Shown one piece after another: positions 10,619 to 26,793 of a stretch of DNA of 64,000 nt; position 1 is the first letter of the stretch; each line of letters opens with the position of its first letter. Origin of the DNA: Bacteroidales bacterium (GTDB taxonomy: Bacteria > Bacteroidota > Bacteroidia > Bacteroidales > UBA932); contig JAGBTG010000035.1 in NCBI GenBank assembly GCA_017631435.1, positions 1-64,000 of the forward strand. The letters run 5' to 3'. The notes under the pieces are model-generated. The model worked only from the letters and a program-made list of their open reading frames with translations, had not been told where the DNA came from and made no database searches. Both the position numbers and the translations under genes were made by a program.

Positions 10619-11905
10619 CTAGAAGAGCCCCTCCACTGCCCTTACAATCTCCTCTGCAGGCAACTCAGGGTTAAGTACAAGGTGAGGTTTTGCATACACA
10701 ACCTGTTTCTCGCTCTTTGCAAGCAGTTCACCGCCACCGGTTATGTTAAGCATTATAACTTCATCTTTCTTTACAGTCCTTTCTGCAACAGCCTGTGCAA
10801 GTGACGCTGTAGCAACTGCTGCAGCATTGTGGATATCTATCCCCTCCAGTTCAAGGAATTTCTTTTTCCAAAGATTAAGAGAATCATTTGTAACCTTGAA
10901 CATGTCTCCACCTGCATCCTCCATTGCATCAAACAGTCCTCCCGACAGCGAATAAGGAGGTTTTCTGTTGGAAAGTACTTTGGCCTCAATCTCAGCCGCT
11001 GCTGCACGTGCCTGCTCAGGAGTCATTTCAACAAGAGCTCTCGAGTGCTGTTTCCAGCTGTCGTACATTATTGTGAACGGAGCATTTTGTGAAGGGTAAA
11101 GCTTCATCTTGTGGCTACCCCATCTTCCGTCTGCAATAAGGCGGAGGTTGTTCTCCCATACAGCAATGGCACCTGTACCGCTTCCAATTGCCTGGAAGTA
11201 CGCATCAGGAATTCTTCCTATATGTTCCACAGCAGAAAGGATGGTTGTTCCCATACCGTCTCTGCGGGCAACATTTTTTGCTCCACCTTCAGCCATAAAA
11301 CGTTCGCAGGTGCATACTTTGTCTGCAAGTGCAATCGCATCAAAATAATCTGATCCTGCAGGTGATGCAATTATCTTCACGCATTCATTCAGTGGCTTGC
11401 TGAACCACAATGCATCAATGTTGTCTTCCGGAATGGAGAGCAGCAATGGAATTCCATTGTCTGAACACACTTTGGCAAATGCCCTGGCTGTGTTTCCTGC
11501 AGATGCCACCACAAGAACCTTTCCGGAATCCTCAGGCAATCTTCCACATACAGAATATGCCTCGGTCTCCTTGAACGAGCATGTCTCCATATATGCACCC
11601 TTTTTCGGCCACCATCCCGAGAAAGTTATGTAAAGGTTCTCAAGTCCAAGTTCTGCAGCCAATGCTTCACTTTTGTAAGTTACCGGAGCGCACGAACCTT
11701 TGAGTGTCCTGCTTATTGGAAGCCAGTCTGCATATCTGTACAAACCTTCAAGGTCATTGCGGGGGTTAAACTTTTTCTGTTCATACTCTGCCCTTACAAG
11801 ACTTGGGTTTTTGCATTCAGGATCGGCAAGAGACCATCCCTTATCCTGGAAACTGTGTCCGTCTGCACAGCATACCAGCGAATATTTTGTTGGATTGAAT
11901 TTCAT
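10619..11905 (-). CDS. Cysteate synthase (threonine-synthase-like PLP enzyme)
   Basis: 428 residues. Predicted to make L-cysteate from O-phospho-L-serine and sulfite. The fold-type II PLP features are present: the Schiff-base lysine in METCSFKETEAYS (about 113), the substrate loop VVASAGNTARAFA (about 137), and the phosphate-binding glycine loop NITGGGE (about 395). The SFKETEA context and ITFSGWWPKKGAYME differ from ordinary threonine synthase and fit the archaeal/Bacteroidetes cysteate synthase group as I remember it. Last gene of the nine-gene operon, 9 bp after the Hdr-like membrane protein. The presence of the acyltransferase and reductase for sulfonolipid synthesis upstream supports this call over threonine synthase. 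Biochemical activity is inferred. Confidence 0.8.
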   Translation of the reverse strand: MKFNPTKYSLVCCADGHSFQDKGWSLADPECKNPSLVRAEYEQKKFNPRNDLEGLYRYADWLPISRTLKGSCAPVTYKSEALAAELGLENLYITFSGWWPKKGAYMETCSFKETEAYSVCGRLPEDSGKVLVVASAGNTARAFAKVCSDNGIPLLLSIPEDNIDALWFSKPLNECVKIIASPAGSDYFDAIALADKVCTCERFMAEGGAKNVARRDGMGTTILSAVEHIGRIPDAYFQAIGSGTGAIAVWENNLRLIADGRWGSHKMKLYPSQNAPFTIMYDSWKQHSRALVEMTPEQARAAAAEIEAKVLSNRKPPYSLSGGLFDAMEDAGGDMFKVTNDSLNLWKKKFLELEGIDIHNAAAVATASLAQAVAERTVKKDEVIMLNITGGGELLAKSEKQVVYAKPHLVLNPELPAEEIVRAVEGLF

Positions 11906-11914
11906 GATATACTC

Positions 11915-13735
11915 TTATTTTTCTTCTAATATAGCTCTATTTACAATTTCTGCAATGTCAAGAACAGGATTTGTTGCATATTTTGCAAATGTGTTCTTGC
12001 ACAACGGACATGCCGTTACCACAATATCTGCAGATGTGTCAGTGAGGTTGTTGAGTGCATTTTCTACCAATGGCTTGCGTTTGTCATAGCCAAGAGTCAG
12101 ACTGCCAAGACTTCCGCCACAGCAGATGCTCTCCTGTCTGTTCTTTTTACCTTCTACCAGTGTTCCTACGGATTCAACTACCCTTCTTGGCTCATCGTAG
12201 ATTCCGCAACCCCTTCCAAGTTCACAAGGGTCGTGATATGCATATTTTAAGCCAGATTTGCCCAGTTTTATCTTTCCATCTGAAATCAGACGGTAGATGT
12301 ACTCTGTATGGTGTAGCACCTCAATCCCTTCCAATGCATATTTCTCCTTAAAGATACGGTAACATATAGGACAACTCAGAAGCAGAACTGAAGCTCCGGA
12401 TTCTTTAATGATTGCAGTGTTCTTTTCTATCATCTGCTGTGCCGCTTCCTTCCTTCCGGCCATAAGCATAGGCCTTCCGCAACATATTCCGCCATCCTCA
12501 TCCATCATCTGCCACTGCTCACCTGCCTTGTTGAGCAGCGAAGTCATGGATTTTACTATTCCAGGAGTCAACGGAGACATACAGCCTGCAAAGTAGAGAA
12601 CTTTACGCCCCTTCTCAAGTTTGCCGGAAAGCTGTAATGTGTCAATTTGCGAATAGTCCGGTTCCAGAGAGTATTTTCTCACTGAGCGCTGGGCAATACG
12701 CAGCTTGTCACCTTCTACTCCTACAGGACATACTGCAGAACACTTTCCGCAAAGAAGGCATTTGTCACTTATCTCTTCAATGCGCTTTTCGTTCCTTCTT
12801 TTAATCTGGCGGTTGAGGTATACTGTTGTATCCTTTGTATTTATCTTGGTTGCGCTCATTGGACAGGCGTCAATGCACACTCCACATCCAGGGCAAGAGT
12901 ATACCTGGGCTCTAGAGTATCCCTTGCGGGTACTTTTTATCTTTATTCCGGCATTCCTCAGTGGAATAAGGAGTATTTCTGCCGGTATATGCATGTATCT
13001 GCTGAAAGGGAGGATGAACATGAACACTCCCAATGCCATTGAATATGCCCACCATGATGGCAATACATTCATTTCATTGCTGAAGAACAGATGCAGCAGC
13101 TGGTTGAGGCTTTTGGTAAGGAATGATCCGCCGCTGATGTCTGCAGTGAAACCTTCGGCCAACAGCCTTAACGGAAATATGGCCCACAGTGCATAAAGCC
13201 CTATAAGGTCTGTCAAACTTGGCCTTGTGGTACGCCGCATGCCAAAGAGTAATGACCACACTCTTTTAACCATTGCCAGAAGTACACCGCTGAGGATTAC
13301 GAGCAGGAAGAAATCCATTAGGAAAAAGAAGAATGACCCCTGCATTGTATTGTCGGCTATGGCTACGAAATACCTGAAAAAGATGGGATACCATACACGG
13401 TGGATCATGTCGGGAGTATAGAGAAATACCTCTATATGTCCTATTACAATTATCATGAACCAGCCGAATGCAATGCTGGAATGCATATAGCCCAGCAGTT
13501 TGTTCCGTTTCCACAATTTTACATGGAACAGGCAGTCGCAGAACCACTCCTTTATATTCTTTGCCATAATCTTGGGATTCAGAAGCGAGAGGAAGAATGT
13601 CTTTCTCTCCTTTGCATCCAATTCCATGATTATCCTTGCTGCACCTATTACGCACCAGCACAACACGAATGTCATTCCAAGCACAAAAGGAATGACAAAG
13701 GCATTGAATTCCATTGTATAGATATTCTTCATCAT
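11915..13735 (-). CDS. HdrD/DsrK-like iron-sulfur protein fused to a NarI/HdrE-like membrane domain
   Basis: 606 residues. The first about 280 residues carry about five membrane helices with histidines placed as in heme b cytochromes (IIVIGHIEVFLY). Then come two [4Fe-4S] motifs, CPGCGVCIDACPMSATK (about 300) and CLLCGKCSAVCPVGVEGD (about 340), and two CCG domains: AGCMSP...GGICCGRPM...SCPICYR and HDPCELGRGCG...ICCGGSLG...TACPLCKN. This is the HdrD/DsrK/HmcF layout with the quinone- or methanophenazine-facing subunit (HdrE/DsrM) fused on. Expected to exchange electrons between the membrane quinone pool and a soluble Hdr-like complex encoded by the four preceding genes. Its start overlaps the stop of the small ferredoxin gene (ATGA). 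Confidence 0.85.
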   Translation of the reverse strand: MMKNIYTMEFNAFVIPFVLGMTFVLCWCVIGAARIIMELDAKERKTFFLSLLNPKIMAKNIKEWFCDCLFHVKLWKRNKLLGYMHSSIAFGWFMIIVIGHIEVFLYTPDMIHRVWYPIFFRYFVAIADNTMQGSFFFFLMDFFLLVILSGVLLAMVKRVWSLLFGMRRTTRPSLTDLIGLYALWAIFPLRLLAEGFTADISGGSFLTKSLNQLLHLFFSNEMNVLPSWWAYSMALGVFMFILPFSRYMHIPAEILLIPLRNAGIKIKSTRKGYSRAQVYSCPGCGVCIDACPMSATKINTKDTTVYLNRQIKRRNEKRIEEISDKCLLCGKCSAVCPVGVEGDKLRIAQRSVRKYSLEPDYSQIDTLQLSGKLEKGRKVLYFAGCMSPLTPGIVKSMTSLLNKAGEQWQMMDEDGGICCGRPMLMAGRKEAAQQMIEKNTAIIKESGASVLLLSCPICYRIFKEKYALEGIEVLHHTEYIYRLISDGKIKLGKSGLKYAYHDPCELGRGCGIYDEPRRVVESVGTLVEGKKNRQESICCGGSLGSLTLGYDKRKPLVENALNNLTDTSADIVVTACPLCKNTFAKYATNPVLDIAEIVNRAILEEK

Positions 13736-14070
13736 TTATCCTCCTTCTTGCCGTATATCCGGCTTATGCAAAGTATCAGGTGTCTTGTATTTATCCCCCT
13801 TGGGCATACCATTGTACATTTTCCGCAGAGCATGCAGGCAGAAAGCAATTTTATGGCTTCATCTTCCCTCCCCCTTTGCAGGCAAAGCAGCACTTTCCTT
13901 AAACTCATCCCAGAAAATGGTGCTGCTGTGCAAGTTGCACTGCAGCTGCCGCAAGCCATACATCTTCTGGCATCAGGTTCCATTGAACACAATTGTTCAA
14001 ATTTGCTCCTGTCCATCTTGTCCAGATCTATGGTTGAACTGGCAGACAATCTGAATCCGAATCCTTTCAT
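13732..14070 (-). CDS. HdrC-like dicluster ferredoxin subunit (second C subunit)
   Basis: 112 residues. Two [4Fe-4S] motifs, CMACGSCSATC (about 37-47, followed by T-A-A-P) and CMLCGKCTMVCPRG (about 79-92), separated by the helical segment MSLRKVLLCLQRGREDEAIK, which is the classic HdrC pattern. Overlaps both neighbours by 4 bp (ATGA at each side), so it is made in step with the HdrA-like and HdrD-like proteins. Its likely job is electron transfer between the flavin subunit and the CCG domains of the membrane-anchored subunit. Confidence 0.85.
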   Translation of the reverse strand: MKGFGFRLSASSTIDLDKMDRSKFEQLCSMEPDARRCMACGSCSATCTAAPFSGMSLRKVLLCLQRGREDEAIKLLSACMLCGKCTMVCPRGINTRHLILCISRIYGKKEDK

Positions 14071-15086
14071 CCCTTTTCTGAAATAATGCTGTTGTGAATT
14101 TCCAGTACAGCAGATCTTGCTTCTGCCAATGTCTCAGGTACAGTCTTTGGTCCGGTGCAGGCTCCTGCATAGTATACCCCTTTCTTTGGTGAAGATGTTA
14201 TGTGCAGGATATTGTCGCTGCTTTGGAGGAACTTGTCTGAATCAATTGAAAGCCCCAATGAAGATGCCAAAGAAGAATCCTTGCAGCATGCCATTCCCGA
14301 CATCAGCACCAACAGGTCAAGGGTTACCCTTATAGGTCTTCCCGACAGTGTATCTTCTGCCTTTACCACAACTTTCCCTTCAATGTTTTCCCCAACTTCC
14401 GATACTCTTCCCCTTATGAAGTGAATTCCGTAATCACGTTGTGCTTTAGTGTAGAAATCCTCATATTTCTTTCCAAAGAGACGCAGGTCCATATAGAAGC
14501 AATAAACCTGTGAATTCGGATACATCTCCTTAAGTTCCATTGCCTGTTTTATGGCGGTGATGCAGCATACCTTTGAACATTGGGTATTGCCGGCCTTCTC
14601 GTCGCGGGATCCTACACAATGTACAAATCCCACCGAATTTATTGATGATGAATCTATCCTTTCATCACTATGGCCATTAAACCATTGTTCAAGATCTGCA
14701 TTTGTAATCACATGATTGTAAATGCCGTATCCGTATTCTTCCTTCTTGGAAGCGTCAAACAGTTCAAAACCTGTTGTAATGAGGATATACCTTGTACTAA
14801 CAGTAACTCCATTTGAAAGGATCAGGTTGTATCTGTCCTTAAGGCGGTTTATTGAGTATATTTCTGTGTTGAGGAATATATTGGCATCCCTACACGATTC
14901 ATATAGTGTACTGATAATATCCCCGGAAGGTGTCATATCCGGAAACAGACGGTGCCATTGGGCAACATTGCCTCCCAATTTATCGCTTTTCTCAATTAAA
15001 AAAGGGGTATATCCCAGTTTGAGCAGCTGTCCTGCGGCTTCCATTCCCGCTATTCCACCACCTATTATAACTACTATTTCATTCAT
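14067..15086 (-). CDS. HdrA-like FAD protein
   Basis: 339 residues, only the flavoprotein core of HdrA: FAD-binding VIIGGGIAGMEAAGQL at the N-terminus, the HdrA-specific FVHCVGSRDEKAGNTQCSKV (about 175-194) with the following CC, and the second nucleotide-binding stretch SSPKKGVYYAGACTGPKTVPE near the C-terminus. The extra ferredoxin domains and N-terminal thioredoxin-reductase-like insert of methanogen HdrA (about 650 residues) are absent, as in the short HdrA of sulfur-oxidising sHdr systems. Central redox subunit of the complex. Four bp separate it from the HdrB-like gene; it overlaps the next by ATGA. Confidence 0.85.
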   Translation of the reverse strand: MNEIVVIIGGGIAGMEAAGQLLKLGYTPFLIEKSDKLGGNVAQWHRLFPDMTPSGDIISTLYESCRDANIFLNTEIYSINRLKDRYNLILSNGVTVSTRYILITTGFELFDASKKEEYGYGIYNHVITNADLEQWFNGHSDERIDSSSINSVGFVHCVGSRDEKAGNTQCSKVCCITAIKQAMELKEMYPNSQVYCFYMDLRLFGKKYEDFYTKAQRDYGIHFIRGRVSEVGENIEGKVVVKAEDTLSGRPIRVTLDLLVLMSGMACCKDSSLASSLGLSIDSDKFLQSSDNILHITSSPKKGVYYAGACTGPKTVPETLAEARSAVLEIHNSIISEKG

Positions 15087-15090
15087 ATTT

Positions 15091-16161
15091 TTAGAAACAT
15101 TTTATTCCCTGTGGCAATTCAGGGCGCAACAAATCCTTCTTGTTGAGTCCCTTATATTTGTCTTCAGGAGAATATTCTATCCCTATCTTGTCCAAAAGAG
15201 GCTCAACGGCCACCTGATGGAGCTGCAGACCAAGATCCCATGGATTGTATCCCAATACTAGACCTGCAACCTCTTCATATGTAAATACCGGTATTCCAAA
15301 TCCGTTCTCTCCGTAGGTCTTCCCTTCCATTTCGGCTATTACATATTGCCATCTGTCAAGAAAATAAGGGCAGCCCGGACAATTGGTTATAATCATATCC
15401 GGCTTGTATGGTGCCATTGACTCAAATTTCTTGTGGGTATTGGAAATTGAGTATCCCCTGTTGGCTTTAACATGGTATTGGCGGAATCCGTATCCGCAGC
15501 AGTGTCTCCTCTCGGGATAATCTATCACATTACCTCCCCAAGATTCAACCATACCTGTAAGGACATAAGGATATTCTGCACCGCCAACCCCTTTAGAAGG
15601 GAACATTTTTGAATAGTGGCATCCTATATGTTCCACAACTCTCAACGGCTCACCGGTCTTCTGGTTTACAAGCCTGAATTTTGCCCTTTCGGCAATTTCG
15701 TTGCGGAACTTGAATATAAGGTCGCTTGAGTGGGCAAGGTATTTGGGTTTTTTGAACTCTTTCTTGCACGCTTTCCACAACAGTTCCCTTATCTTGGCCT
15801 CCAGTTCAGGATTCTCATGCCAAGTCTCAAGAATCTCTGTATAGTTGCCAAAGGAAGTTATACAGGAAGCAACATAGTTTTCGTATCCTGCTTCGGTCAT
15901 GAGTGCAAACTGTCTGGCCACAATTGTCATTGCGGTCTCCTGTGGTATTGTATCACAGTGGTATGCTATACCACCGCAGGTTGTGTGATGTTCATTCTCA
16001 TATATGTCTTTACCCAGCACATTCCTGCAGATTTCCATGAACATCTTTTCTGATGCCGGAAAGAAATTCTGCCTGATGCAACTGCGTACATAGTACCATT
16101 TGTCGTCTGGAATCTCCTTCTGGTACTCGCTCCATATTTTCTGTTTACCTTGGTAAATCAT
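15091..16161 (-). CDS. HdrB-like CCG-domain protein
   Basis: 356 residues. The C-terminal cysteine-rich (CCG) domain is intact: EHIGCHYSKMFPS (about 178), RRHCCGYGFRQY (about 219) and ITNCPGCPYFLDRW (about 258). The N-terminal CCG repeat is degenerate (TTCGGIAYHC, then ASCITSFGNY, with T in place of the first Cys), so one of the two noncubane cluster sites may be changed. HdrB-type subunits carry the active-site clusters that split disulfides or act on sulfur carriers. Cotranscribed directly behind the HdrC-like gene (5 bp gap). Confidence 0.85.
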   Translation of the reverse strand: MIYQGKQKIWSEYQKEIPDDKWYYVRSCIRQNFFPASEKMFMEICRNVLGKDIYENEHHTTCGGIAYHCDTIPQETAMTIVARQFALMTEAGYENYVASCITSFGNYTEILETWHENPELEAKIRELLWKACKKEFKKPKYLAHSSDLIFKFRNEIAERAKFRLVNQKTGEPLRVVEHIGCHYSKMFPSKGVGGAEYPYVLTGMVESWGGNVIDYPERRHCCGYGFRQYHVKANRGYSISNTHKKFESMAPYKPDMIITNCPGCPYFLDRWQYVIAEMEGKTYGENGFGIPVFTYEEVAGLVLGYNPWDLGLQLHQVAVEPLLDKIGIEYSPEDKYKGLNKKDLLRPELPQGIKCF

Positions 16162-16166
16162 TTCAG

Positions 16167-16862
16167 TTAATCGTTAAAATGATTGTCTGAACACTCTTCA
16201 AATGTATGTCTGAAATACTCCTCCATAGTCATACCCATCTCCTTAGCCTTTTCACGGGAGTATTTTTCTATTGTCTCTATCCTCTCTGTTCCGCCGGTTA
16301 CATCAAAGATGGCTTTCAATTCATCCAAGGATTCCTGAGGAATTTTTCGCAGAATTCCAGGGCCATCTCCCCTGAAGTTGGCTCCTTGCCTTGCGTAACT
16401 CTCCTCAAGGTGCTCGGTATGCCATTTCCATACCGGACCGGATTCCATGTGGTCTTCCCATGAAAAGCTGTCGGGATGAATGCAATAACCGTATTTGAGA
16501 ATGTTGCCGGTCATTATTTTTGTCAATGGATAGAGTTGCCGTCCCTTCTCGGATTCTACAAAGTATCCAAGGCGGGCAGAAAGGTTGCGCAGGGCCATTA
16601 TGACCAGTCCAGGGCCGTTTTTCCTCGGGCACCTGGTAAGGCAAGAAAGGCATTCTCCGCAATACCAGATAGTGTCGCTTTTGAGGAGTTTTTCAATTTC
16701 CTCTTCGTCGGCCCTTTGTACTGTATCCACAATTTTGCGGGGATCGTACTTGTAGAACTCTGCAGCAGGGCATATTGCTGTGCATGTGCCACAATTGATG
16801 CAGGTGTTCAGTCCGTCCTTTATGCGGTAGTCTTCCTTTAGAAGTTCATACAACTTTCCCAT
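16167..16862 (-). CDS. HdrC-like iron-sulfur subunit (first C subunit)
   Basis: 231 residues. Two [4Fe-4S] motifs: CINCGTCTAICPAAE (about 21) and CGECLSCLTRCPRKNGPG (about 69). Unlike HdrC of methanogens it has a long C-terminal extension (about 120 residues; HPDSFSWEDHMESGPVW, YARQGANFRGDGPGILRKIP). As far as I remember, C1 subunits of sulfur-oxidising Hdr-like systems have such an extension. First of the five redox genes, 21 bp after the short-chain reductase gene. Confidence 0.82.
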   Translation of the reverse strand: MGKLYELLKEDYRIKDGLNTCINCGTCTAICPAAEFYKYDPRKIVDTVQRADEEEIEKLLKSDTIWYCGECLSCLTRCPRKNGPGLVIMALRNLSARLGYFVESEKGRQLYPLTKIMTGNILKYGYCIHPDSFSWEDHMESGPVWKWHTEHLEESYARQGANFRGDGPGILRKIPQESLDELKAIFDVTGGTERIETIEKYSREKAKEMGMTMEEYFRHTFEECSDNHFND

Positions 16863-16883
16863 TGTCTTTAAATTTACATTTGG

Positions 16884-17669
16884 TTACATAGGCTTTATTT
16901 TCCTTGAAAGGCGTGCGCACAATCCCGGGAAGAAACGCTTTATGTATACCATTAGCAGTTCTTTTCTCCCTACCAGCACTTCCCTTTTCCCTTTTGCAAT
17001 CGCTTTGGTTATAATGCGTGCCGCAATGTCTGCAGGCATTCCGTTCTTCTGCCCCGGGTCAAGTTCTCCGTGCGGTTTGCCCCCCTTGTCAAGGGCGTAC
17101 ATGGATATGTTTGTACTTACCCTTCCCGGACATACTAGCGTTACCTTAATTCCGGCTTTGTGATATTCTGCAGCCAGGGTCTCAAAGAATCCGTACAATG
17201 CAAATTTGGAAGAGCTGTATCCGCATCTGAGCGGAAATCCGAACCGTCCTGCTATTGAAGTTGTTGCCGCAATGTGTCCACCGCCTCGGGCAATCATTCT
17301 GGGCAGTAGTTCCTTAGCTATTGCAACTGGAGCAAAATAGTTCACTTCCATTATTTTGCGTACCATTTCCATTGAAGTATCCTCCACGGTTGTACGCTGG
17401 CTAATGCCGGCATTGAGCATTGCAATGTCAATTCCGCCGGTTGCTTCCCAAGCCTTTTGAACCAGTCCGCCTATTCCGTCATTATTGTTGAAGTCATACG
17501 GGAGCACCACCACTTTGGTGGCACCCGTCGCATGACATTTTTCAGCAACTTTCTCCAGACGCTGTGCCGACGAGGAGGTGAGTACAAGACTCGCCCCCTG
17601 TGCAGCATATCTGTAGGCGCATGCCTCTCCTATTCCCGACGATGCACCTGTTATCCAAACGGACAGCAT
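16884..17669 (-). CDS. Short-chain dehydrogenase, candidate 3-ketocapnine reductase
   Basis: 261 residues, classical SDR. Cofactor motif ITGASSGIGEA at the N-terminus, NAGIS at about 92, catalytic Ser in AATTSIAGRFG and the YSSSK pair (about 154). The C-terminus is basic with a hydrophobic stretch (VYIKRFFPGLCARLSRKIK), consistent with membrane attachment, as for 3-ketosphinganine reductase-like enzymes. It begins 3 bp after the acyltransferase stop. Given that neighbour, the best guess is reduction of the 3-keto group of the condensed cysteate-acyl product to give capnine. Family sure; substrate inferred from context. Confidence 0.75.
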   Translation of the reverse strand: MLSVWITGASSGIGEACAYRYAAQGASLVLTSSSAQRLEKVAEKCHATGATKVVVLPYDFNNNDGIGGLVQKAWEATGGIDIAMLNAGISQRTTVEDTSMEMVRKIMEVNYFAPVAIAKELLPRMIARGGGHIAATTSIAGRFGFPLRCGYSSSKFALYGFFETLAAEYHKAGIKVTLVCPGRVSTNISMYALDKGGKPHGELDPGQKNGMPADIAARIITKAIAKGKREVLVGRKELLMVYIKRFFPGLCARLSRKIKPM

Positions 17670-17672
17670 AAA

Positions 17673-18938
17673 TTATTTTATAAGTGCCATGTTAGGCATT
17701 TCCTTGTCAAATTCTCCGCGGTCGAGCCTCTCCTTTATATCCTTGAATGCGGCAAGTGTCCTCTCCACATCTTCCATTGTGTGGGCTGCAGTAGGGATAA
17801 TTCTGAAAATTACCATACCTGGAGGGATAACCGGATAGATTACTACCGAACAGAATATATGATACTCCTCACGCAATGCAACTGCAATGTTTGATGCCTG
17901 GTTTACACCGGCTTTTACGTGTACCGGTGTTACGCATGCCTCTGCCGGACCTATTTCAAATCCCAAATCGCGGAATCCCTGCTGCAGACGTCTGGTTACC
18001 TTCCACAATTGTGCGCGGAGTGAATCACCCTCAGGGCTGTCAATTATGTCAAGTCTCTTCAAGCATCCTTCAACTATTGGCATAGGAAGTGATTTTGCAT
18101 AAATCTGCGATCTCATGTTGTATTTGAGATAATCAATGATATCCTTGTCGGCAGCAACAAAACCACCTATGATGGCCATGGATTTTGCATAAGCACCAAT
18201 GTAAATGTCAATCTCATCCATCACTCCAAAATGCTCAGATGTACCGCGTCCGTGCTCACCCATCACACCAAAGCCGTGGGCGTCATCAATCATAATGCGG
18301 AACTGGTATTTTTTCTTGAGTGCGGCAATCTGGTCCAAAATTCCAAGGGCACCTGTCATTCCAAATACTCCCTCTGTAATCAAAAGTACTCCACCACCTT
18401 TCTTGTCAGCCTCTTCGCATGCTTTTGCAAGCACTTTCTCACAATCCTTAATGTCGTTGTGGCGGAATTTGTATTTGCTTCCAATGTGAAGGCGGATTCC
18501 GTCGAGAAGACATGCATGGTCTTCTGCATCATATACTATTACATCGTGCCTTCCAACCAATGAATCGATTGTTGAAACTATACCCTGATATCCGAAGTTG
18601 AACTCGAATGCTGCTTCTTTTTTCTCAAATGCTGCAAGACGGCGCTCAAGTTCTTCATGCAGGTGTGTCTGACCGGTCATCATTCGGCTGCCCATAGGGT
18701 ATGCAAGGCCCCAACGTGCAGCAGCCTCTGCATCAGCTTTGCGGATCTCCGGATGGTTTGCAAGGCCAAGGTAGTTGTTGAGGCTCCAGCAGAGCACATC
18801 CTGGCCGTTGAATCTCATATTTGGTCCCAATTCGCCTTCAAGTTTTGGGAATGCGAAATAACCTTCTGCTTTCTCGCGGTACTGTCCTATAGGACCACCT
18901 GTTGATTTTCTGATTCTGTCAAAAATGTCTGTATACAT
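17673..18938 (-). CDS. Alpha-oxoamine synthase, probable cysteate fatty-acyltransferase
   Basis: 421 residues, PLP fold type I, the serine palmitoyltransferase/KBL/AONS family. Conserved parts: SLNNYLGLANHPEIRK, GSRMMTGQTHLHEELE, DDAHGFGVMGEHG (Asp and His that hold PLP) and the Schiff-base lysine in YIGAYAKSMAIIGGF. The start KAEGYFAFPKLEGELGPNM and the AKSMA lysine context resemble the Flavobacteria/Alistipes enzymes shown to join cysteate to an acyl thioester in sulfonolipid synthesis, more than Bacteroides serine palmitoyltransferase. It sits in one operon with cysteate synthase and a reductase. Bona fide SPT or 2-amino-3-ketobutyrate ligase is the main alternative. Confidence 0.78.
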   Translation of the reverse strand: MYTDIFDRIRKSTGGPIGQYREKAEGYFAFPKLEGELGPNMRFNGQDVLCWSLNNYLGLANHPEIRKADAEAAARWGLAYPMGSRMMTGQTHLHEELERRLAAFEKKEAAFEFNFGYQGIVSTIDSLVGRHDVIVYDAEDHACLLDGIRLHIGSKYKFRHNDIKDCEKVLAKACEEADKKGGGVLLITEGVFGMTGALGILDQIAALKKKYQFRIMIDDAHGFGVMGEHGRGTSEHFGVMDEIDIYIGAYAKSMAIIGGFVAADKDIIDYLKYNMRSQIYAKSLPMPIVEGCLKRLDIIDSPEGDSLRAQLWKVTRRLQQGFRDLGFEIGPAEACVTPVHVKAGVNQASNIAVALREEYHIFCSVVIYPVIPPGMVIFRIIPTAAHTMEDVERTLAAFKDIKERLDRGEFDKEMPNMALIK

Positions 18939-18965
18939 GTCAGTTACGTTTTAACCGTTAATATT

Positions 18966-20036
18966 TTATTTTATTTTTTCTCTTGAAACAAGTCCCATCA
19001 TTCTGAACAGGAATTTTGGAAGGGATTTTTTGGGGTCCCTTTCCTTCATGTTGAGGAACCATCCCATTTTCTTTACAATTGGAATTTTGTGTGTCTCCAC
19101 AAATTCTACCAATGTGCCGTCGGGATCCTCAATATATGTGAAATGGCCTGATGCATCTCCCATATCAAACTGTTCTCCTCCCGGACAACTGTCTACAGTG
19201 AAAGGGTGTCCCATATCTGCACAGAATTTGCCCAGTGCTTTCATGTTGCTTACATCAAAACAGATTTGGATGAATCCGGGATCTCCCCAATATCGTCCTT
19301 CATAAATTTTGCGCGGAGTGCGCTCCAATGCCTGTACAAGCTCTATTGTTGAGTCTCCAAACACCTCTGCAAAAGCACCTTTGCGTTTAGGTGCTGCAAG
19401 GATAACCCTGCGGTACTGTTTTTCTGAATCAGGCAATGGATTGTATTCGCTGAATTTTCCTGTTGTATCACTTTTAAGGATACTGTAACCGAGTATCTGG
19501 CTGTAGAACCTTACCGAGCGGTCCATATCTGTTACACCAATTACGGCACCCACCATTCCACCGGTAAGTTTGTTGTCATTTATATAAATGCTTTTGTCTT
19601 CTACCAGCTGGAAACAGTTGCCGTAAAGGTCCTTCATATAAAGGCATGGTGTTCCGTCGGGAAGAGTTTCAGGAGGAGTACATGAACTCCATTTGCCTGA
19701 GAACTTTTTGTAGAAAGCTGCCACATCCTTGCATTTGAGTTTTGCGGCAAAGATTCCCAAATCACCCACAGCTATTTCAAACGGGCATTCTGTAGGCTTA
19801 CGTTTTGAGTACTGCCAGATCTCAAAACCGCCTCCTCCCTGCAGGTTCAAGGCAATTCCGGCATGTCTTTGCTGAGGTTGTCCACCTGTATAAGGGAGCA
19901 TCCTTTCTGCTACTGTATCGTCTTCCAGAATTTTGATATCTGCCCCAAAATACTCTATGAACCAGTTCCAGGATTTCCTGAAATCTACAGTACCAACACC
20001 TATCTGTTGTATTCCTGCTATATTGTAGTCATTCAT
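18966..20036 (-). CDS. VOC-family protein related to 4-hydroxyphenylpyruvate dioxygenase
   Basis: 356 residues with two tandem VOC (vicinal oxygen chelate) modules, about 8-150 and 160-320, the size and layout of HPPD-like proteins. Metal-binding glutamates are suggested by GGFEIWQYS, TIELVQALE and GTLVEFVETH. However, positions where the first-strand histidines are expected read QQIGVGTVDF and GAVIGVTDMD, and the third site reads IQICFDV, so the usual His ligands are not obvious. First gene of the sulfonolipid/Hdr operon, 27 bp ahead of the acyltransferase. Role unknown; hydroxylation or another modification of the lipid, or a non-catalytic binding role, are guesses. Confidence 0.65.
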   Translation of the reverse strand: MNDYNIAGIQQIGVGTVDFRKSWNWFIEYFGADIKILEDDTVAERMLPYTGGQPQQRHAGIALNLQGGGGFEIWQYSKRKPTECPFEIAVGDLGIFAAKLKCKDVAAFYKKFSGKWSSCTPPETLPDGTPCLYMKDLYGNCFQLVEDKSIYINDNKLTGGMVGAVIGVTDMDRSVRFYSQILGYSILKSDTTGKFSEYNPLPDSEKQYRRVILAAPKRKGAFAEVFGDSTIELVQALERTPRKIYEGRYWGDPGFIQICFDVSNMKALGKFCADMGHPFTVDSCPGGEQFDMGDASGHFTYIEDPDGTLVEFVETHKIPIVKKMGWFLNMKERDPKKSLPKFLFRMMGLVSREKIK

Positions 20037-20092: not shown

Positions 20093-20100
20093 CAAATGTA
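20093..20100 (-). promoter_or_regulatory. Predicted -7 element of the sulfonolipid/Hdr operon
   Basis: Minus strand TACATTTG fits TAnnTTTG about 57 bases upstream of the VOC gene. No other good element was seen between there and the last gene of the operon, so this is the likely single promoter for nine genes. It lies back to back with the chrA promoter at 20114-20121. Confidence 0.55.
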
Positions 20101-20128: not shown

Positions 20129-20677
20129 ATGGTAACCTTGTGGAAAATATTCTGGATATTTGCTAAGATTGGTGCCTTCACAATTGGAGGGGGTATTCCA
20201 ATGATTGTAGCCATTAAAAAGGAACTTGTGGAGAGGCAATGGCTCAATGATGAGGACTTTATTGATATCATTACTTTGGCCCAAACGGCACCGGGCCTTT
20301 TTGCCGTAAATATTGCAATCCTTACAGGTCACAAGCTCCGTGGAACCAAAGGAAGTGTTGTTGCAACAATTGCCAGTTGCCTCCCCCCTTTCCTTATAAT
20401 CCTGGCTGTGGCAATGTTCTTTACTTCGTTTAAGGACAATGAATATGTAATCAGGGCCTTCAAGGGAATAAGGCCCGTAGTTGTAGCCCTTATTGGTGTT
20501 CCAATGCTTGATATGATAAAGGCTACCAAAATGAGATGGTGGTCGTGGGCAGTTGTACTCAGTTCAATGGTACTGGTATGTTTCCTAAGCGTATCCCCTA
20601 TCTATATACTCATTTGTGTGATAGTTATGGCTGCCTTTATAAGTTGGTACATTAACAGAAAGGAGGTGTGCAAATGA
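20129..20677 (+). CDS. ChrA-family transporter, first half
   Basis: 182 residues, one CHR domain. Motifs: KIGAFTIGGGIPMI (about 12-25), ALAQTAPGLFAVN-like segment (TLAQTAPGLFAVNIAIL), and several hydrophobic helices. Short CHR proteins work as pairs that together equal one full-length ChrA; the second half follows with an ATGA overlap. The family exports chromate or moves sulfate-like oxyanions across the inner membrane. Diverges from the sulfonolipid operon and shares its promoter region, which hints at a sulfur oxyanion as the natural substrate (inference). Confidence 0.82.
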   Translation: MVTLWKIFWIFAKIGAFTIGGGIPMIVAIKKELVERQWLNDEDFIDIITLAQTAPGLFAVNIAILTGHKLRGTKGSVVATIASCLPPFLIILAVAMFFTSFKDNEYVIRAFKGIRPVVVALIGVPMLDMIKATKMRWWSWAVVLSSMVLVCFLSVSPIYILICVIVMAAFISWYINRKEVCK

Positions 20678-21222
20678 TTTACGCAGAACTTTTTGCCACC
20701 TTTTTCCTTATTGGAATGTTCACTATAGGAGGTGGATATGCTATGCTTTCCCTTATTCAGAATGAGGTTGTTACTGTTCACGGATGGATATCCGACACTA
20801 CTTTCACAGATATAGTTGCAATATCCCAGATGACTCCCGGCCCTATAGGAATCAACTCTGCCACTTATATTGGGTATGAGGTGCTGGCGCAGAGCGGTGC
20901 ATCTGAATTCATGAGCATACTCGGGTCATTCACAGCCACTTTTGCAGTTGTGCTCCCGTCATTCATAATTGTTCTCATGCTTTGTAAGGTGTATGAGAAA
21001 TGGAAGGAGCATTATATGTTCAAAGGAATAATGGCCGGCCTCAAACCTGCCACCCTCGGACTCATAGGAACAGCAGCCCTCACTCTTGCCACTCCCGACA
21101 ATTTCATTGACTGGAAGAGCTTTGTAATTTGCATAGTTGCCTTCCTGGCACTCCATTTCAAAAAAATAGGCCCATTTGCCATTATAGGACTCGGGGCCGT
21201 TGTGGGATTGCTTGTCTATTAG
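20674..21222 (+). CDS. ChrA-family transporter, second half
   Basis: 182 residues from the ATG at 20674, which overlaps the stop of the first half. Motifs FFLIGMFTIGGGYAMLSLIQ and AISQMTPGPIGINSATYIGY are the CHR-domain signatures (G-G-G-Y-A-M; M-T-P-G-P-x-x-x-x). About five to six membrane helices. An AGGAGGT stretch sits 6 bp upstream of the start, an unusually good Shine-Dalgarno for this phylum, perhaps by chance. Expected to form the inverted partner of the first half. Confidence 0.82.
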   Translation: MIYAELFATFFLIGMFTIGGGYAMLSLIQNEVVTVHGWISDTTFTDIVAISQMTPGPIGINSATYIGYEVLAQSGASEFMSILGSFTATFAVVLPSFIIVLMLCKVYEKWKEHYMFKGIMAGLKPATLGLIGTAALTLATPDNFIDWKSFVICIVAFLALHFKKIGPFAIIGLGAVVGLLVY

Positions 21223-23208: not shown

Positions 23209-26200
23209 TTAATACGGGCCTGTAATAATTCTATTTCCGTATTCACCCCAGCCAAGGTCGTTGTCGGCTACCTTTTTCAGGAAATCATTGTACACACCTT
23301 CGCGTACCTTGATTTGTACAGTCTTGTCGCATTTGTCAAATACTCCAGTACCTATGCTGGGGAACTTGGTCAAGCCATCGTAGCCCAAGGTTATTGTGTT
23401 GAGGTTGTCACAGTTATAGAAAGCGTAGTTACCGATGCTTTCGATTGTGTTGGTGATCCACATATTTGAAACTGCAGTTTGGCTGAACATGTAAGGCAAG
23501 ATATTGCGTAGTCCTCCGCCAATGTTAATGGAGGTCAGGGTAGATGTTCCGCTGGAGAATATTCCCATATCCGGTGCGTCGAGTTGTTTTTCATAATCAG
23601 CGTCGAGTTCAAATTCGCGGTAGACATTAATCTGTGTCAAGGGCGAATAGTAGAAAGGCCCCACATCGTCACTACCAATATGGCAGCCTATCTTGAGTTT
23701 ATGTTCTCCCGACTCGAAGGTTAGGGTTGACAGTTTCTCGCATTTGTGAAACGCCTCCTTGTTAATCACAATTACACTGGATGGGATGGTTAAAGTCTTT
23801 ATGTTCAGATAGTTGAACATATGTTCACTTATATTTATTACATTACTTCCTATAGTGACACTTACCTCATCTACATTTTTATAGTGCTCATTGGCAAACA
23901 TCCCCTCATCCCACTCGTCCGGTATGAACAATGAACCGTACTGGGTAATATACTTTGTTGTGCGGCCAAGTTCTATATGCTTCAATGGTGAGTTATAGAA
24001 GGTGCCATAATCACTCTTTTGATTGGCAATATTCAAAACCTCATCGCTAGGGTTGATGATTACCGTGTGCAGCGCATTGCAATCGGTGAATGCATCGTGT
24101 CCAATGGTTGTTATAGACGAAGGGATAGTGATTGAGGTCAAGCCCGAATTGGCAAACGTATAATATGGGATCTCCTTCACCTGGCTACCGATGGTCACGC
24201 TGGTGAGGTTAGACTGGTCCTGGAAGAATCCTTCAGTTGCTTCACTGGCGTCGCCTCCATGCAAGGTGATTTCGCGGTTCCAGTCTACGAGCTCGAGCTT
24301 AGCATCATGGAAAGGGACTTGCTCATCGGACAGATATGACTGATAGTACATGATGAGCTTTGTTCCTGTCTGGCTAGGTTTAAAGGACACATACTTCAGT
24401 TCACCGCAGCTATAGAAGGCATCCATGCCGATGGTGTTCACTGTGCCCCTGATGGTAAGCGCCTCCAGTGCATCGCAGTCATAGAGCACACCTGCATCTA
24501 TCGTGCTGGCACCTAGATCGGCTTTTTGTAACGCATCGCAGTCATATAAAGCACCATAGTCGACAGTCTTTACCGTTGCCGGGATGTCTATTGACTCCAG
24601 TTTGTCGCAATCATAGAACGCATACTTGCCGATTGTGGTCACCGAGCCAGGGATAGAGACCGATGGTAATCCCGATTTGGCAAAGGTGTAGTGAGGTATG
24701 CCTGTTACCTGCTCTCCTATGGTCACATTGCTGAGGTTGGGGTTCTCTGAGAAGAGTCCCTCATTAATGGCGTCTATGCTGCCATCTTTTTCCAAGGCAT
24801 AGTTGAGGGCGCGATTCCAGTTCAATGTCTCAAGCGAGGCGTCATAGAAAGGACTCTGATCGTCAGTTCCGAATGTCTGATAACCCAAGGTGAGTGGTGT
24901 GCCAGTCGGACTTGGTTCTAAGGTCAACGACTTCAGGTTATCGCAGTTGTAGAATACGTCGTTCTCTATCTCCTCTACCGTGCCCAGGATAGTGACTGAC
25001 TCCAACCCTGTGCATTCATAGAAGCTGTTCTTAGCTACATGAGATGAGCCAATGACTACTGTCTTCACCTTATTGCTAAAGCAGAACGCATGTTCACCGA
25101 TAGCAGTCTGAGCTGAGGGGATGATTACCGTCTCCAGGTCGTCGCAGTTGAAGAAGGCATCCTTCCCAACAATGGTCACATTACTCGGGATATTGATTGA
25201 TTTGATATTCCTATATGCGAACATATAAGGGTAAATCTGGCTCAGCTTGGGCCCAATCTCCACCGTAACCTCATCAACGGTTCCAGGGCGATTAGCACCC
25301 GACTCAGAATCGGCACTCAAAGAGAATAGACCTTCATCTACATTTTCATAATAAAAGTCGCCTTCGGATATTTCATCATCAAAATGGTAATAGTCTCGAT
25401 AGTCGATATCTCTGTTGATAGATATATGGCGCAATGGAGAGAAACCAAACGGACCTCTTGCCGCAGATGAAGCGTTGGCCACTACCATGAGAGGCCCTTC
25501 TCCCTCGAGTATGGAGACGCGTTCCAGATTGCGGCATTCCCAAAAAGCGTAATAGCCCACCTGGGTCACATTGCCCGGGATGGTGAGTTCGCGAAGTGCA
25601 GTACCTGCAAAAGCAAATTTACCGATAGTGGTCAGACTCTTGGGGAAAATCACCGAGGTGATGTCGGTCACATTGGAAGGTTTGCTGTACCAACTGCCAA
25701 TAAGTTCAACAATCTTAGATCCACTGAAGGCATTGGCCTTGATGGTGGTAAGAGGTTTGTCAAACTCAATGACGAAGTGCTTCTTTTCCTTATCGTAGTA
25801 GTGCTTCGTGATGGTAGCATCAAAGGGGTTGGTTATCTCGCCCGAGAATACCAGCGGCTCTGTGCTGCTTGCACGGGTGTAGATGAGCTGATGATCACTC
25901 TGGGTGTTTGCTGTGAACTTGAGCGCAGCCATAGGCTGGATGTTGCGACGGGTAATTGTTACCTTCTTCGAAGTCTGCATTGTGAAAGCACCCCCTTCTG
26001 TTGGAGTAACCAGAATCTTGAGACCCTTCTCGAATGTCACAGGAGGCATGGCAAACCAAAACTCAGTAGCTTGCTCCGTACTGGTACCCAACTCCACTCC
26101 AGCACCACAGTTCAGAACAATTGTAGAGGTACCTTCATCAGTCATCGTCACCTCAGGGGCGGCATCGTAGTGAGGCTCGATAAATCCGTATCCTGCAATC

Positions 26201-26793
26201 TTCTCGCCACCAAGCGCAGTAACCTCAATCGTCTCCACTTTGGTGCCGGCTGCCCCATAGAGCTTGATGACGAGGTAGCCGCAGGTGTTGCGGAAGTAGA
26301 GGTCGGTGTCGGTGCTATGCTCTCCCACGGCTACCATTACATTGGCATCCTTGCCAAAGGAGTTGGGCGCATAGTCCTGATTTTCTGAAAAGTATAACCT
26401 AAGTTTCTCTATATTGTTTTCTTTCGTACAAGATCCTCCTGCTCCATAAGGGAACACAGCATAAGACTTGCTCACTTCGAAACCGACTTGGCTTGGTATG
26501 CCTTCTACCTTGTGGAACTCTGCTGTGGTGGCACCATCCTCACCATAGTACTTGTACTGCATACGGTGGTTTTGCCCCATATAGTACGATACGGCATCAC
26601 CGTTGTTCCAGTATATAGTAGTGCCATCTGTGTAGGCACGTGTCTCGTCATTGTTGCCTGCTACGGTAGCGTAGATAATCTCGGGGAGCTCGCCACTGGC
26701 TGTGCCACCCTGATTGAGCCGCTCAAACAACTCATCCTTCTCGCAACTGCTGAATAGCACCGTTGCGAATAATAAATAAATGAATTTCTTCAT
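23209..26793 (-). CDS. Large BspA-like leucine-rich-repeat surface lipoprotein
   Basis: 1194 residues. Signal peptide with lipobox LFSSC (Cys 17) followed by EKDE, which fits the acidic/Lys surface-export signal of Bacteroidetes lipoproteins. Residues about 35-290 look like a fimbrillin-type beta domain. From about 340 on come LRR_5 (BspA) repeats of the type IPGSVTTIGKYAFYDCDKLE, organised in longer modules of about 110-130 residues that each hold a non-LRR linker (SPFYDASLETLNWNR..., PFHDAKLELVDWNRE...) and a G-x-QV-x-x-IP-x-YTFA segment. Expected on the cell surface in adhesion. A 43-residue peptide gene directly precedes it. Confidence 0.85.
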   Translation of the reverse strand: MKKFIYLLFATVLFSSCEKDELFERLNQGGTASGELPEIIYATVAGNNDETRAYTDGTTIYWNNGDAVSYYMGQNHRMQYKYYGEDGATTAEFHKVEGIPSQVGFEVSKSYAVFPYGAGGSCTKENNIEKLRLYFSENQDYAPNSFGKDANVMVAVGEHSTDTDLYFRNTCGYLVIKLYGAAGTKVETIEVTALGGEKIAGYGFIEPHYDAAPEVTMTDEGTSTIVLNCGAGVELGTSTEQATEFWFAMPPVTFEKGLKILVTPTEGGAFTMQTSKKVTITRRNIQPMAALKFTANTQSDHQLIYTRASSTEPLVFSGEITNPFDATITKHYYDKEKKHFVIEFDKPLTTIKANAFSGSKIVELIGSWYSKPSNVTDITSVIFPKSLTTIGKFAFAGTALRELTIPGNVTQVGYYAFWECRNLERVSILEGEGPLMVVANASSAARGPFGFSPLRHISINRDIDYRDYYHFDDEISEGDFYYENVDEGLFSLSADSESGANRPGTVDEVTVEIGPKLSQIYPYMFAYRNIKSINIPSNVTIVGKDAFFNCDDLETVIIPSAQTAIGEHAFCFSNKVKTVVIGSSHVAKNSFYECTGLESVTILGTVEEIENDVFYNCDNLKSLTLEPSPTGTPLTLGYQTFGTDDQSPFYDASLETLNWNRALNYALEKDGSIDAINEGLFSENPNLSNVTIGEQVTGIPHYTFAKSGLPSVSIPGSVTTIGKYAFYDCDKLESIDIPATVKTVDYGALYDCDALQKADLGASTIDAGVLYDCDALEALTIRGTVNTIGMDAFYSCGELKYVSFKPSQTGTKLIMYYQSYLSDEQVPFHDAKLELVDWNREITLHGGDASEATEGFFQDQSNLTSVTIGSQVKEIPYYTFANSGLTSITIPSSITTIGHDAFTDCNALHTVIINPSDEVLNIANQKSDYGTFYNSPLKHIELGRTTKYITQYGSLFIPDEWDEGMFANEHYKNVDEVSVTIGSNVINISEHMFNYLNIKTLTIPSSVIVINKEAFHKCEKLSTLTFESGEHKLKIGCHIGSDDVGPFYYSPLTQINVYREFELDADYEKQLDAPDMGIFSSGTSTLTSINIGGGLRNILPYMFSQTAVSNMWITNTIESIGNYAFYNCDNLNTITLGYDGLTKFPSIGTGVFDKCDKTVQIKVREGVYNDFLKKVADNDLGWGEYGNRIITGPY

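Follow-up and report, generated by a model that had tools for sequence, protein, structure and literature searches.

Sulfonolipids and the need for sulfite

Sulfonolipids of the capnine and sulfobacin type are made by Bacteroidota from cysteate, for which cysteate synthase (CS) joins sulfite to phosphoserine. The subject here is a nine-gene operon of a Bacteroidales bacterium of the UBA932 lineage (GCA_017631435.1, contig JAGBTG010000035.1, positions 1 to 64,000; these 64,000 nucleotides are referred to as the window), in which genes for sulfonolipid synthesis enclose five genes for proteins resembling subunits of heterodisulfide reductase (Hdr). Judged from gene content, these five genes are one exchangeable cassette that is present or absent as a block. 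With belief and doubt about equally balanced, the cassette in this sulfonolipid operon can be read as encoding a complex, likely linked to the membrane, that oxidises reduced sulfur to sulfite for the CS encoded in the same operon.

The cysteate fatty acyltransferase (CFAT) and the ketoreductases have already been characterised, and sulfonolipids of gut Bacteroidota are reported to be immunomodulatory (PMC11211663); an archaeal-type cysteate synthase was known earlier for Alistipes and Odoribacter (PMC10191378). The origin of the sulfonate sulfur is not addressed in the excerpts of the sulfonolipid literature examined. Cytoplasmic sulfite is formed by sHdr in Hyphomicrobium, where YeiH has been called the exporter of the sHdr-made sulfite (PMC12423496), and in Salmonella YeiH is the main sulfite-resistance factor (PMC12880088). 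Known sHdr needs the lipoate-binding protein LbpA, which is described as 'inevitably associated' with the hdr genes (PMC6067878). EtfD, a membrane protein of related build, passes electrons to menaquinone, beside which its His78 and His241 bind heme b (PMC13083937). Among the matches listed in open-licence PMC, no literature joining Hdr-like genes to sulfonolipids was found: the excerpts of PMC9304779 and PMC13232883 contain nothing to the point, and those of a Black Sea study name hdr genes and capnine lipids separately (PMC11129491).

The operon and its lipid-synthesis genes

Nine leftward open reading frames occupy positions 10619 to 20036 of the window on the minus strand, with distances of 27, 3, 21, 5, 4, -4, -4 and 9 bp in transcription order. 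They are, in that order:

18966..20036, minus strand: gene 1, double-domain protein of the VOC/glyoxalase superfamily, 356 aa (glyoxalase/VOC family match; structure model)
17673..18938, minus strand: gene 2, CFAT of the SulA/CapB type, 421 aa (by bits to 7u7h and 28eh)
16884..17669, minus strand: gene 3, short-chain dehydrogenase (SDR), predicted 3-ketocapnine reductase, 261 aa (PF00106, PRK06181)
16167..16862, minus strand: gene 4, HdrC-like two-cluster ferredoxin (C1), 231 aa (HdrC, 83 bits, below cut-off)
15091..16161, minus strand: gene 5, HdrB-like protein with one complete and one degenerate CCG motif, 356 aa
14067..15086, minus strand: gene 6, short HdrA-like FAD/[4Fe-4S] protein, 339 aa
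13732..14070, minus strand: gene 7, small HdrC-like ferredoxin (C2), 112 aa (family searches)
11915..13735, minus strand: gene 8, HdrE/D-like fusion with an EtfD-like fold, 606 aa (family search, alignment, structure model)
10619..11905, minus strand: gene 9, CS (TIGR03844), 428 aa

The initial annotation had described nine leftward genes with gaps of at most 27 bp or overlaps and without an internal terminator, and this description holds, as positions and spacing agree with it. Terminator-like sites are no commoner in the region than after shuffling (11 versus a mean of 9.6), and the single site on the minus strand falls within the coding sequence of CFAT, so that an internal terminator is not indicated. 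The family identities proposed for the nine genes (VOC, alpha-oxoamine synthase, SDR, Hdr-like, TIGR03844) were likewise returned by family searches.

The alpha-oxoamine synthase is by similarity a cysteate fatty acyltransferase: it scores 529 bits to 28eh, which is named 'Cysteate-C-fatty acyltransferase', and 545 bits to 7u7h, which we take to be the Alistipes finegoldii enzyme, whereas its best serine palmitoyltransferase match reaches 236 bits, well below the solved CFAT scores. Gene 9 passes the TIGR03844 model for cysteate synthase with 459 bits against a cut-off of 324.9. The SDR matches PF00106 and narrowly passes PRK06181 (215.7 bits, cut-off 215), and from its place in the operon it is predicted to be the 3-ketocapnine reductase. 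For the VOC protein, the model (pLDDT 90.7), with 1zsw and GLOD4 as best structural matches, suggests a place in the glyoxalase superfamily only, and no narrower role. At one locus (L110:5564-11609), a VOC gene with 59% identity adjoins the Hdr block in a stretch with neither CFAT nor SDR, and its role may therefore lie with sulfur rather than lipid chemistry. The suggestion that the operon holds the whole headgroup route is reasonable, but an N-acyltransferase is not found among the nine genes, and the ketoreductases of A. finegoldii are reported as unclustered with cfat and Cys (PMC11211663).

Cassette and transporter replace one another

Related loci were collected through CFAT from named genomes, the best 80 of 232 relatives being scanned (81-97% CFAT identity, so that near kin were sampled); most are from metagenome-assembled genomes of herbivore-gut Bacteroidales. 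The complete nine-gene order is present in 25 of the 80 loci. Four others (L128, L165, L177, L195) keep both cassette and CS but lack a single further gene, at L194 the cassette is accompanied by a threonine-synthase-like enzyme and there is no CS, and L116 is cut by the contig end. CFAT and CS, adjacent or nearly so, occur without the cassette in 21 loci, with VOC, CFAT, SDR and CS in a row in 11. A threonine-synthase-like enzyme without cassette was found in 12 loci, and neither enzyme in the stretch in 16.

This distribution bears on the view of the initial annotation that the redox complex is dedicated to the pathway, in the strict sense that sulfonolipid synthesis depends on it for a step that it carries out or drives. 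The position of the cassette between the SDR and CS genes and the conserved synteny would fit such a role, but it has to be rejected because otherwise identical operons have no cassette. The same is seen in genomic gene content, where CS and CFAT regularly occur without hdr-like genes: a strong HdrB match is lacking from 59 of the 99 Bacteroidales genomes that carry both CFAT and TIGR03844. The ketoreductases also function in E. coli with CFAT alone (PMC11211663), and an obligate step is very improbable. The complex rather looks like one of several exchangeable sulfite sources than like an obligate enzyme of the lipid route.

What follows CS in the cassette-less operons is a gene of the YeiH family (PF03601). 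Of 19 loci that lack the cassette, 17 have such a transporter gene after CS, whereas 4 of the 32 cassette loci do (Fisher 5e-8). The comparison adds to the loci of the CFAT scan the window, L098 and four loci from the window's family, and leaves out the loci without a CS match of more than 250 residues (L194, and L116, L118 and L120 at contig ends) as well as L124, L166 and L160, which have less than 1.5 kb downstream. For the CFAT-scan loci alone the numbers are 17 of 18 and 4 of 27. The two loci with neither cassette nor transporter after CS, L119 and L098, are from genomes that hold HdrB elsewhere. Among the genomes with cassette-less operons, 16 of 19 have no HdrB match, and of the other three, L125 and L131 also have the transporter. 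PF03601 in turn is absent from 27 of 37 cassette genomes, including that of the window.

The trees point to repeated exchange. In the CFAT tree, which has 49 rows, the cassette is gained or lost 12 times or more. When pairs that are independent and lie on well supported branches are compared, the transporter is opposite to the cassette in about five, the same in none and without difference in about two (p 0.0625, which is the limit attainable with five pairs). The CS tree, with 54 rows, shows 6 such changes. The near kin of the window are one clade by CFAT (100/99), whereas on the CS tree a 100/100 branch splits them into cassette-operon CS (together with that of L117) and the CS of the other operons (L119, L121, L122, L125, L131). 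Forcing them together on the CS tree costs 189 log units (AU test, p 8.8e-6, for a clade named after the trees had been seen). As far as these gene trees tell, the CS gene is exchanged together with its module, and the cassette is thereby tied to the sulfite-using step and not to the acyltransferase.

Genomes mostly without the CysH/CysD family

Among 56 genomes that have either a cassette or a CFAT-CS operon lacking it (47 reached via the 80 loci, the window's own genome, four of its family and four others), 53 show no match to the sulfate-reduction family PF01507 (CysH/CysD), which is present in 11 of 14 control genomes. It is absent from the window's own genome (88% complete) and from its four family members (99-100% complete). 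From this lack, together with the exchange against a YeiH-family gene, we infer that the cassette would form sulfite.

The opposite direction has to be considered too. CS, an Hdr complex working reductively on sulfite or an adduct with electrons from menaquinol, and an exporting YeiH-family carrier could all serve to lower toxic sulfite, with the lipid partly as a sink. YeiH is known for sulfite resistance and export (PMC12880088, PMC12423496), the proteins of methanogen Hdr are reductases, and the mutual replacement of transporter and cassette would be expected of two means of disposal as well. Yet CS needs sulfite, and in genomes that mostly have no CysH/CysD a sulfite-removing module beside CS would starve the lipid route; the EtfD-like quinone arm described below moreover belongs to a type that carries electrons into the quinone pool (PMC13083937). 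Disposal is therefore rather improbable, and sulfite formation for CS is the preferred reading.

Occurrence of the Hdr-like genes in Bacteroidales

In a sample of 393 Bacteroidales genomes, TIGR03844 is above its cut-off in 103, CFAT (counted at E<=1e-90) is present in 279, and strong HdrB in 127 (139 at E<=1e-8, the twelve weak ones between 1e-8 and 1e-12 being treated as absences). HdrB and CFAT occur together in 119 genomes, HdrB only in 8, CFAT only in 160 and neither in 106 (p 2e-13), so HdrB almost implies CFAT (119 of 127). With about one genome per family (117 genomes, from the run of family codes of G395-G511), the corresponding counts are 37/1/51/28 (p 5.5e-5). The association of HdrB with TIGR03844 is weak (43/61/84/205, p 0.03), and as it has a p of 0.51 with about one genome per family, a strict co-occurrence of the two was dropped. 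In a sample of 395 genomes of the phylum, TIGR03844 is above cut-off in 9, namely the window's own genome and 8 of one distant family. G518, a 1.5-Mb genome of the own family (99% complete), has no match to TIGR03844, HdrB or CFAT, the whole pathway being jointly absent.

Physical linkage is less common. Of 80 genomes for which the positions of both genes are listed, 8, from six families, have HdrB no more than 12 kb from CFAT; the count is partial, because CFAT positions are listed for some of the 279 genomes. CS and HdrB are both present in 43 genomes of the order sample, and in 4 of these, each belonging to the window's own family, the two are at most 12 kb apart. For CS and CFAT, such proximity is seen in 1 of 54 genomes, that of the window. 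In the distant genomes examined, the five hdr-like genes mostly stand alone as a block, and besides Hdr genes and CS no gene recurs among their neighbours in more than two loci. The tie between the redox genes and the sulfonolipid pathway that the initial annotation claimed is real, as shown by the synteny in 25 of 80 loci, the association of HdrB with CFAT and the joint exchange with CS, but it is not obligate, and co-occurrence with CS across the order is weak.

These patterns raise the possibility that the cassette encodes a quinone-linked thiol/disulfide oxidoreductase of general use, which might serve to detoxify sulfide or keep redox balance, and that it owes its position among the lipid genes to shared regulation or chance linkage and not to sulfite supply. 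The stand-alone blocks of the distant genomes would be in line with this, as would the 72 of 80 genomes in which HdrB has no CFAT within 12 kb and the CysH/CysD genes that most Hdr carriers of the order keep (30 of 40, see below); the Black Sea study also ascribes hdr genes to sulfide detoxification, unproven (PMC11129491). A general enzyme would hardly explain, however, that HdrB almost implies CFAT, that linkage to CFAT is seen in six families and also where another pyridoxal-phosphate (PLP) enzyme replaces CS (L105, L109, L194), and that the cassette is replaced by a transporter of a sulfite-related family and exchanged together with CS. It is an unlikely explanation, although one to be taken seriously.

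The Hdr-like proteins

The cassette proteins miss the NCBIfam equivalog cut-offs by far (HdrA 248 versus 1100 bits, HdrB 129.5 versus 450, HdrC 83 versus 350), and membership in methanogen CoB-CoM heterodisulfide reductase (HdrABC) was therefore rejected. HdrA is a short form of 339 aa without the extra domains of the methanogen chains (643-671 aa), as is typical of sHdr. In a single stretch, residues 5-329 align end to end with 4-335 of the 349-aa chain 6tjr (186 bits), which is presumably sHdrA, and its matches to methanogen HdrA cores (203-210 bits) are in two stretches. Its C157, C170, C174 and C175 are invariant in 23 relatives. HdrB has a complete CCG motif (C181, C221, C222, C261, C264) and a degenerate one (C28, C62, C100), a pattern kept in 27 sequences, and scores up to 114 bits to solved methanogen chains. 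A protein search with HdrB gave 2687 relatives, and the names shown among the best 120 are of a general Hdr kind.

In the fusion, a membrane part without Pfam match is followed by two ferredoxin clusters and two CCG domains. In 32 sequences, H71, H85 and H249 of the membrane part are invariant, and eight ferredoxin cysteines and two complete CCG motifs (18 motif cysteines) are kept. The model of the fusion (pLDDT 88.9) has EtfD of M. smegmatis, 9ojn, as best Foldseek match (TMq 0.72, E 2.9e-20), and its layout of a predicted membrane heme-b domain, ferredoxin and CCG domains corresponds to the EtfD/HdrDE type. The spacing of His85 and His249 nearly equals that of the heme ligands His78 and His241 of EtfD, a comparison by spacing alone and not by residue alignment.

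LbpA is not among the nine operon genes. A single PF01597 (GcvH-family) match in the genome of the window lies on a different contig, and G757, which has the cassette, has no match to the GcvH/LbpA family at all.

A proposed route from sulfide-level sulfur to the lipid

The five Hdr-like proteins would form one complex, in which sulfane or persulfide sulfur could bind to the non-cubane clusters of HdrB, of the D domain or of both. Electrons would pass by the FAD of HdrA and the HdrC clusters to the D domain, then to heme b and menaquinone, and in an anaerobe probably onward to fumarate. With potentials of about -116 mV for sulfite/sulfide and about -74 mV for menaquinone, the transfer of electrons from sulfide to menaquinone with sulfite as product is weakly exergonic, and the use of sulfite for cysteate would draw it forward. 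CS would use the sulfite together with phosphoserine to make cysteate, from which CFAT and the SDR would make capnine, and lineages without cassette would take up external sulfite by the YeiH-family carrier.

Several observations weigh against this. Neither a sulfur substrate nor a carrier for the cassette was identified, and the LbpA gene that accompanies known hdr genes is missing from the operon. HdrA, as given above, scores slightly higher to the methanogen cores than to 6tjr. The transporter is below the TIGR00698 cut-off, and the known PF03601 members are described as exporters or resistance factors and not as importers. Cassette and transporter are present together in four operons, the transporter-type genomes of L125 and L131 hold HdrB elsewhere, and L117 has a cassette-type CS with the transporter. 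When 40 CFAT genomes with Hdr and 40 without were drawn at random from the order sample, PF03601 was found in 14 of the former and 3 of the latter (p 0.005), the reverse of a genome-wide mutual exclusion, which was thus given up; the excess could mean export of Hdr-made sulfite, but it still weakens a simple either-or. In the same genomes, strong PF01507 (matches weaker than 1e-20, in G428, G505 and G773, taken as absent) was found in 30 of 40 with Hdr and 36 of 40 without (p 0.14). Most Hdr carriers of the order are accordingly not short of sulfate reduction, and a simple replacement of sulfate reduction by Hdr across the order is not supported.

On this reading, a complex of the sHdr kind, having a quinone arm like that of EtfD but no lipoate protein, would be placed in lipid biosynthesis as a swappable sulfite source. 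The broader picture is tentative and more doubtful than the role of the cassette itself: gut Bacteroidales may possess a complex, independent of a lipoate protein, that oxidises sulfide-level sulfur to sulfite with menaquinone as acceptor and feeds a lipid head group, whereby the supply, either Hdr or YeiH-type import, would be a plug-in that swaps with the CS gene, and gut sulfide would end in immunoactive sulfonolipids. If this is true, these anaerobes can form sulfite from sulfur at the sulfide level and need neither oxygen nor nitrate nor a lipoate protein for it, luminal sulfide chemistry is joined to a bioactive lipid, Hdr-like complexes gain a use in lipid biosynthesis, and the cassette or the YeiH-family gene becomes a genetic marker that tells strains making sulfite from strains importing it.

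Further genes at these loci

A PLP enzyme similar to threonine synthase stands beside CFAT and the Hdr cassette at three loci without a TIGR03844 gene (L105:15450-16670, L109:11412-12641, L194 at about 11276). With 120 and 108 bits to TIGR03844 it is below the cut-off, and it might represent a third type of cysteate synthase. The operon often has a flanking gene for a MarR-family regulator (PF01047) on the far side of CS (for example L144:16144-16632), and in L093 (L093:6302-6745) and L096 such a gene precedes hdrC1, which makes it a candidate regulator of the sulfite module. In L093, from an own-family genome with the Hdr cassette, CS is followed by a SulP-family permease gene (L093:12876-14651; TIGR00815, 401.6 bits, cut-off 380.45). 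To judge by the record titles, two CFAT operons, L118 and L122 (96% and 94% CFAT identity), belong to one assembly. A second HdrC1-HdrB pair without other hdr genes was found at L095:3279-10052 and L094:9105-11581, where the neighbours look by eye like genes for NifX-type, Mrp-type ATPase and CoA-disulfide-reductase/rhodanese proteins, so we presume; the region is possibly another sulfur-handling cluster.

About 60 bp before gene 1, one candidate promoter element was noted by eye and may serve as a lead:

20093..20100, minus strand: possible -7 box, TAnnTTTG, taken here as the Bacteroidota consensus

No partner -33 box was seen for it, and a sigma-70 scan of the region gave no excess of sites. 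Divergent from the operon and 92 bp away lies a chromate-transporter (PF02417) gene pair (20129-21222, plus strand), which was dropped as an operon partner, as it was found in none of 100 other loci compared. Farther on, 23209-26793 (minus strand) encodes a BspA-type leucine-rich-repeat protein of 1194 aa with six PF13306 copies.

Comparison with known systems

In gene make-up the cassette resembles sHdr systems, for example that of Hyphomicrobium denitrificans, which have a similar set (HdrC-HdrB-HdrA-HdrC-HdrB/D-like). A short HdrA is found in both, the one here matching 6tjr along its whole length, and in both settings the YeiH family is connected with sulfite. The operon differs in that none of its nine genes encodes LbpA, lipoate ligase, DsrE or TusA, that the membrane HdrE/D fusion stands in for the second B subunit of sHdr, and that it is an operon for lipid synthesis with anaerobic relatives and not a lithotrophy locus.

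With the quinone-linked CCG proteins of the HdrDE/EtfD type, the fusion has the membrane part, two ferredoxin clusters and two CCG domains in common. EtfD, however, has one linear [3Fe-4S] cluster and shielded clusters (PMC13083937), whereas both CCG motifs of the fusion keep five cysteines, and the operon has no ETF genes. Methanogen HdrABC is similar in the HdrA core and in HdrB, with the scores to solved chains given above, but is set apart by its equivalog cut-offs and by the extra domains of its HdrA.

As for the transporter, the gene after CS in cassette-less operons passes the gathering score of PF03601 (168.7 versus 24.5 bits) but not the cut-off of TIGR00698 (87 versus 232.6 bits), and it would act here in import, unlike the described members of the family.

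The known sulfonolipid pathway of Bacteroidota, finally, has CFAT, SDR and cysteate synthase in common with the operon. The reductases of A. finegoldii lie apart from cfat and Cys (PMC11211663), whereas the SDR gene here is part of the operon, and while the excerpts of the literature examined mention neither a redox complex nor a sulfite source for that pathway, the operon carries Hdr-like genes between its SDR and its cysteate synthase.

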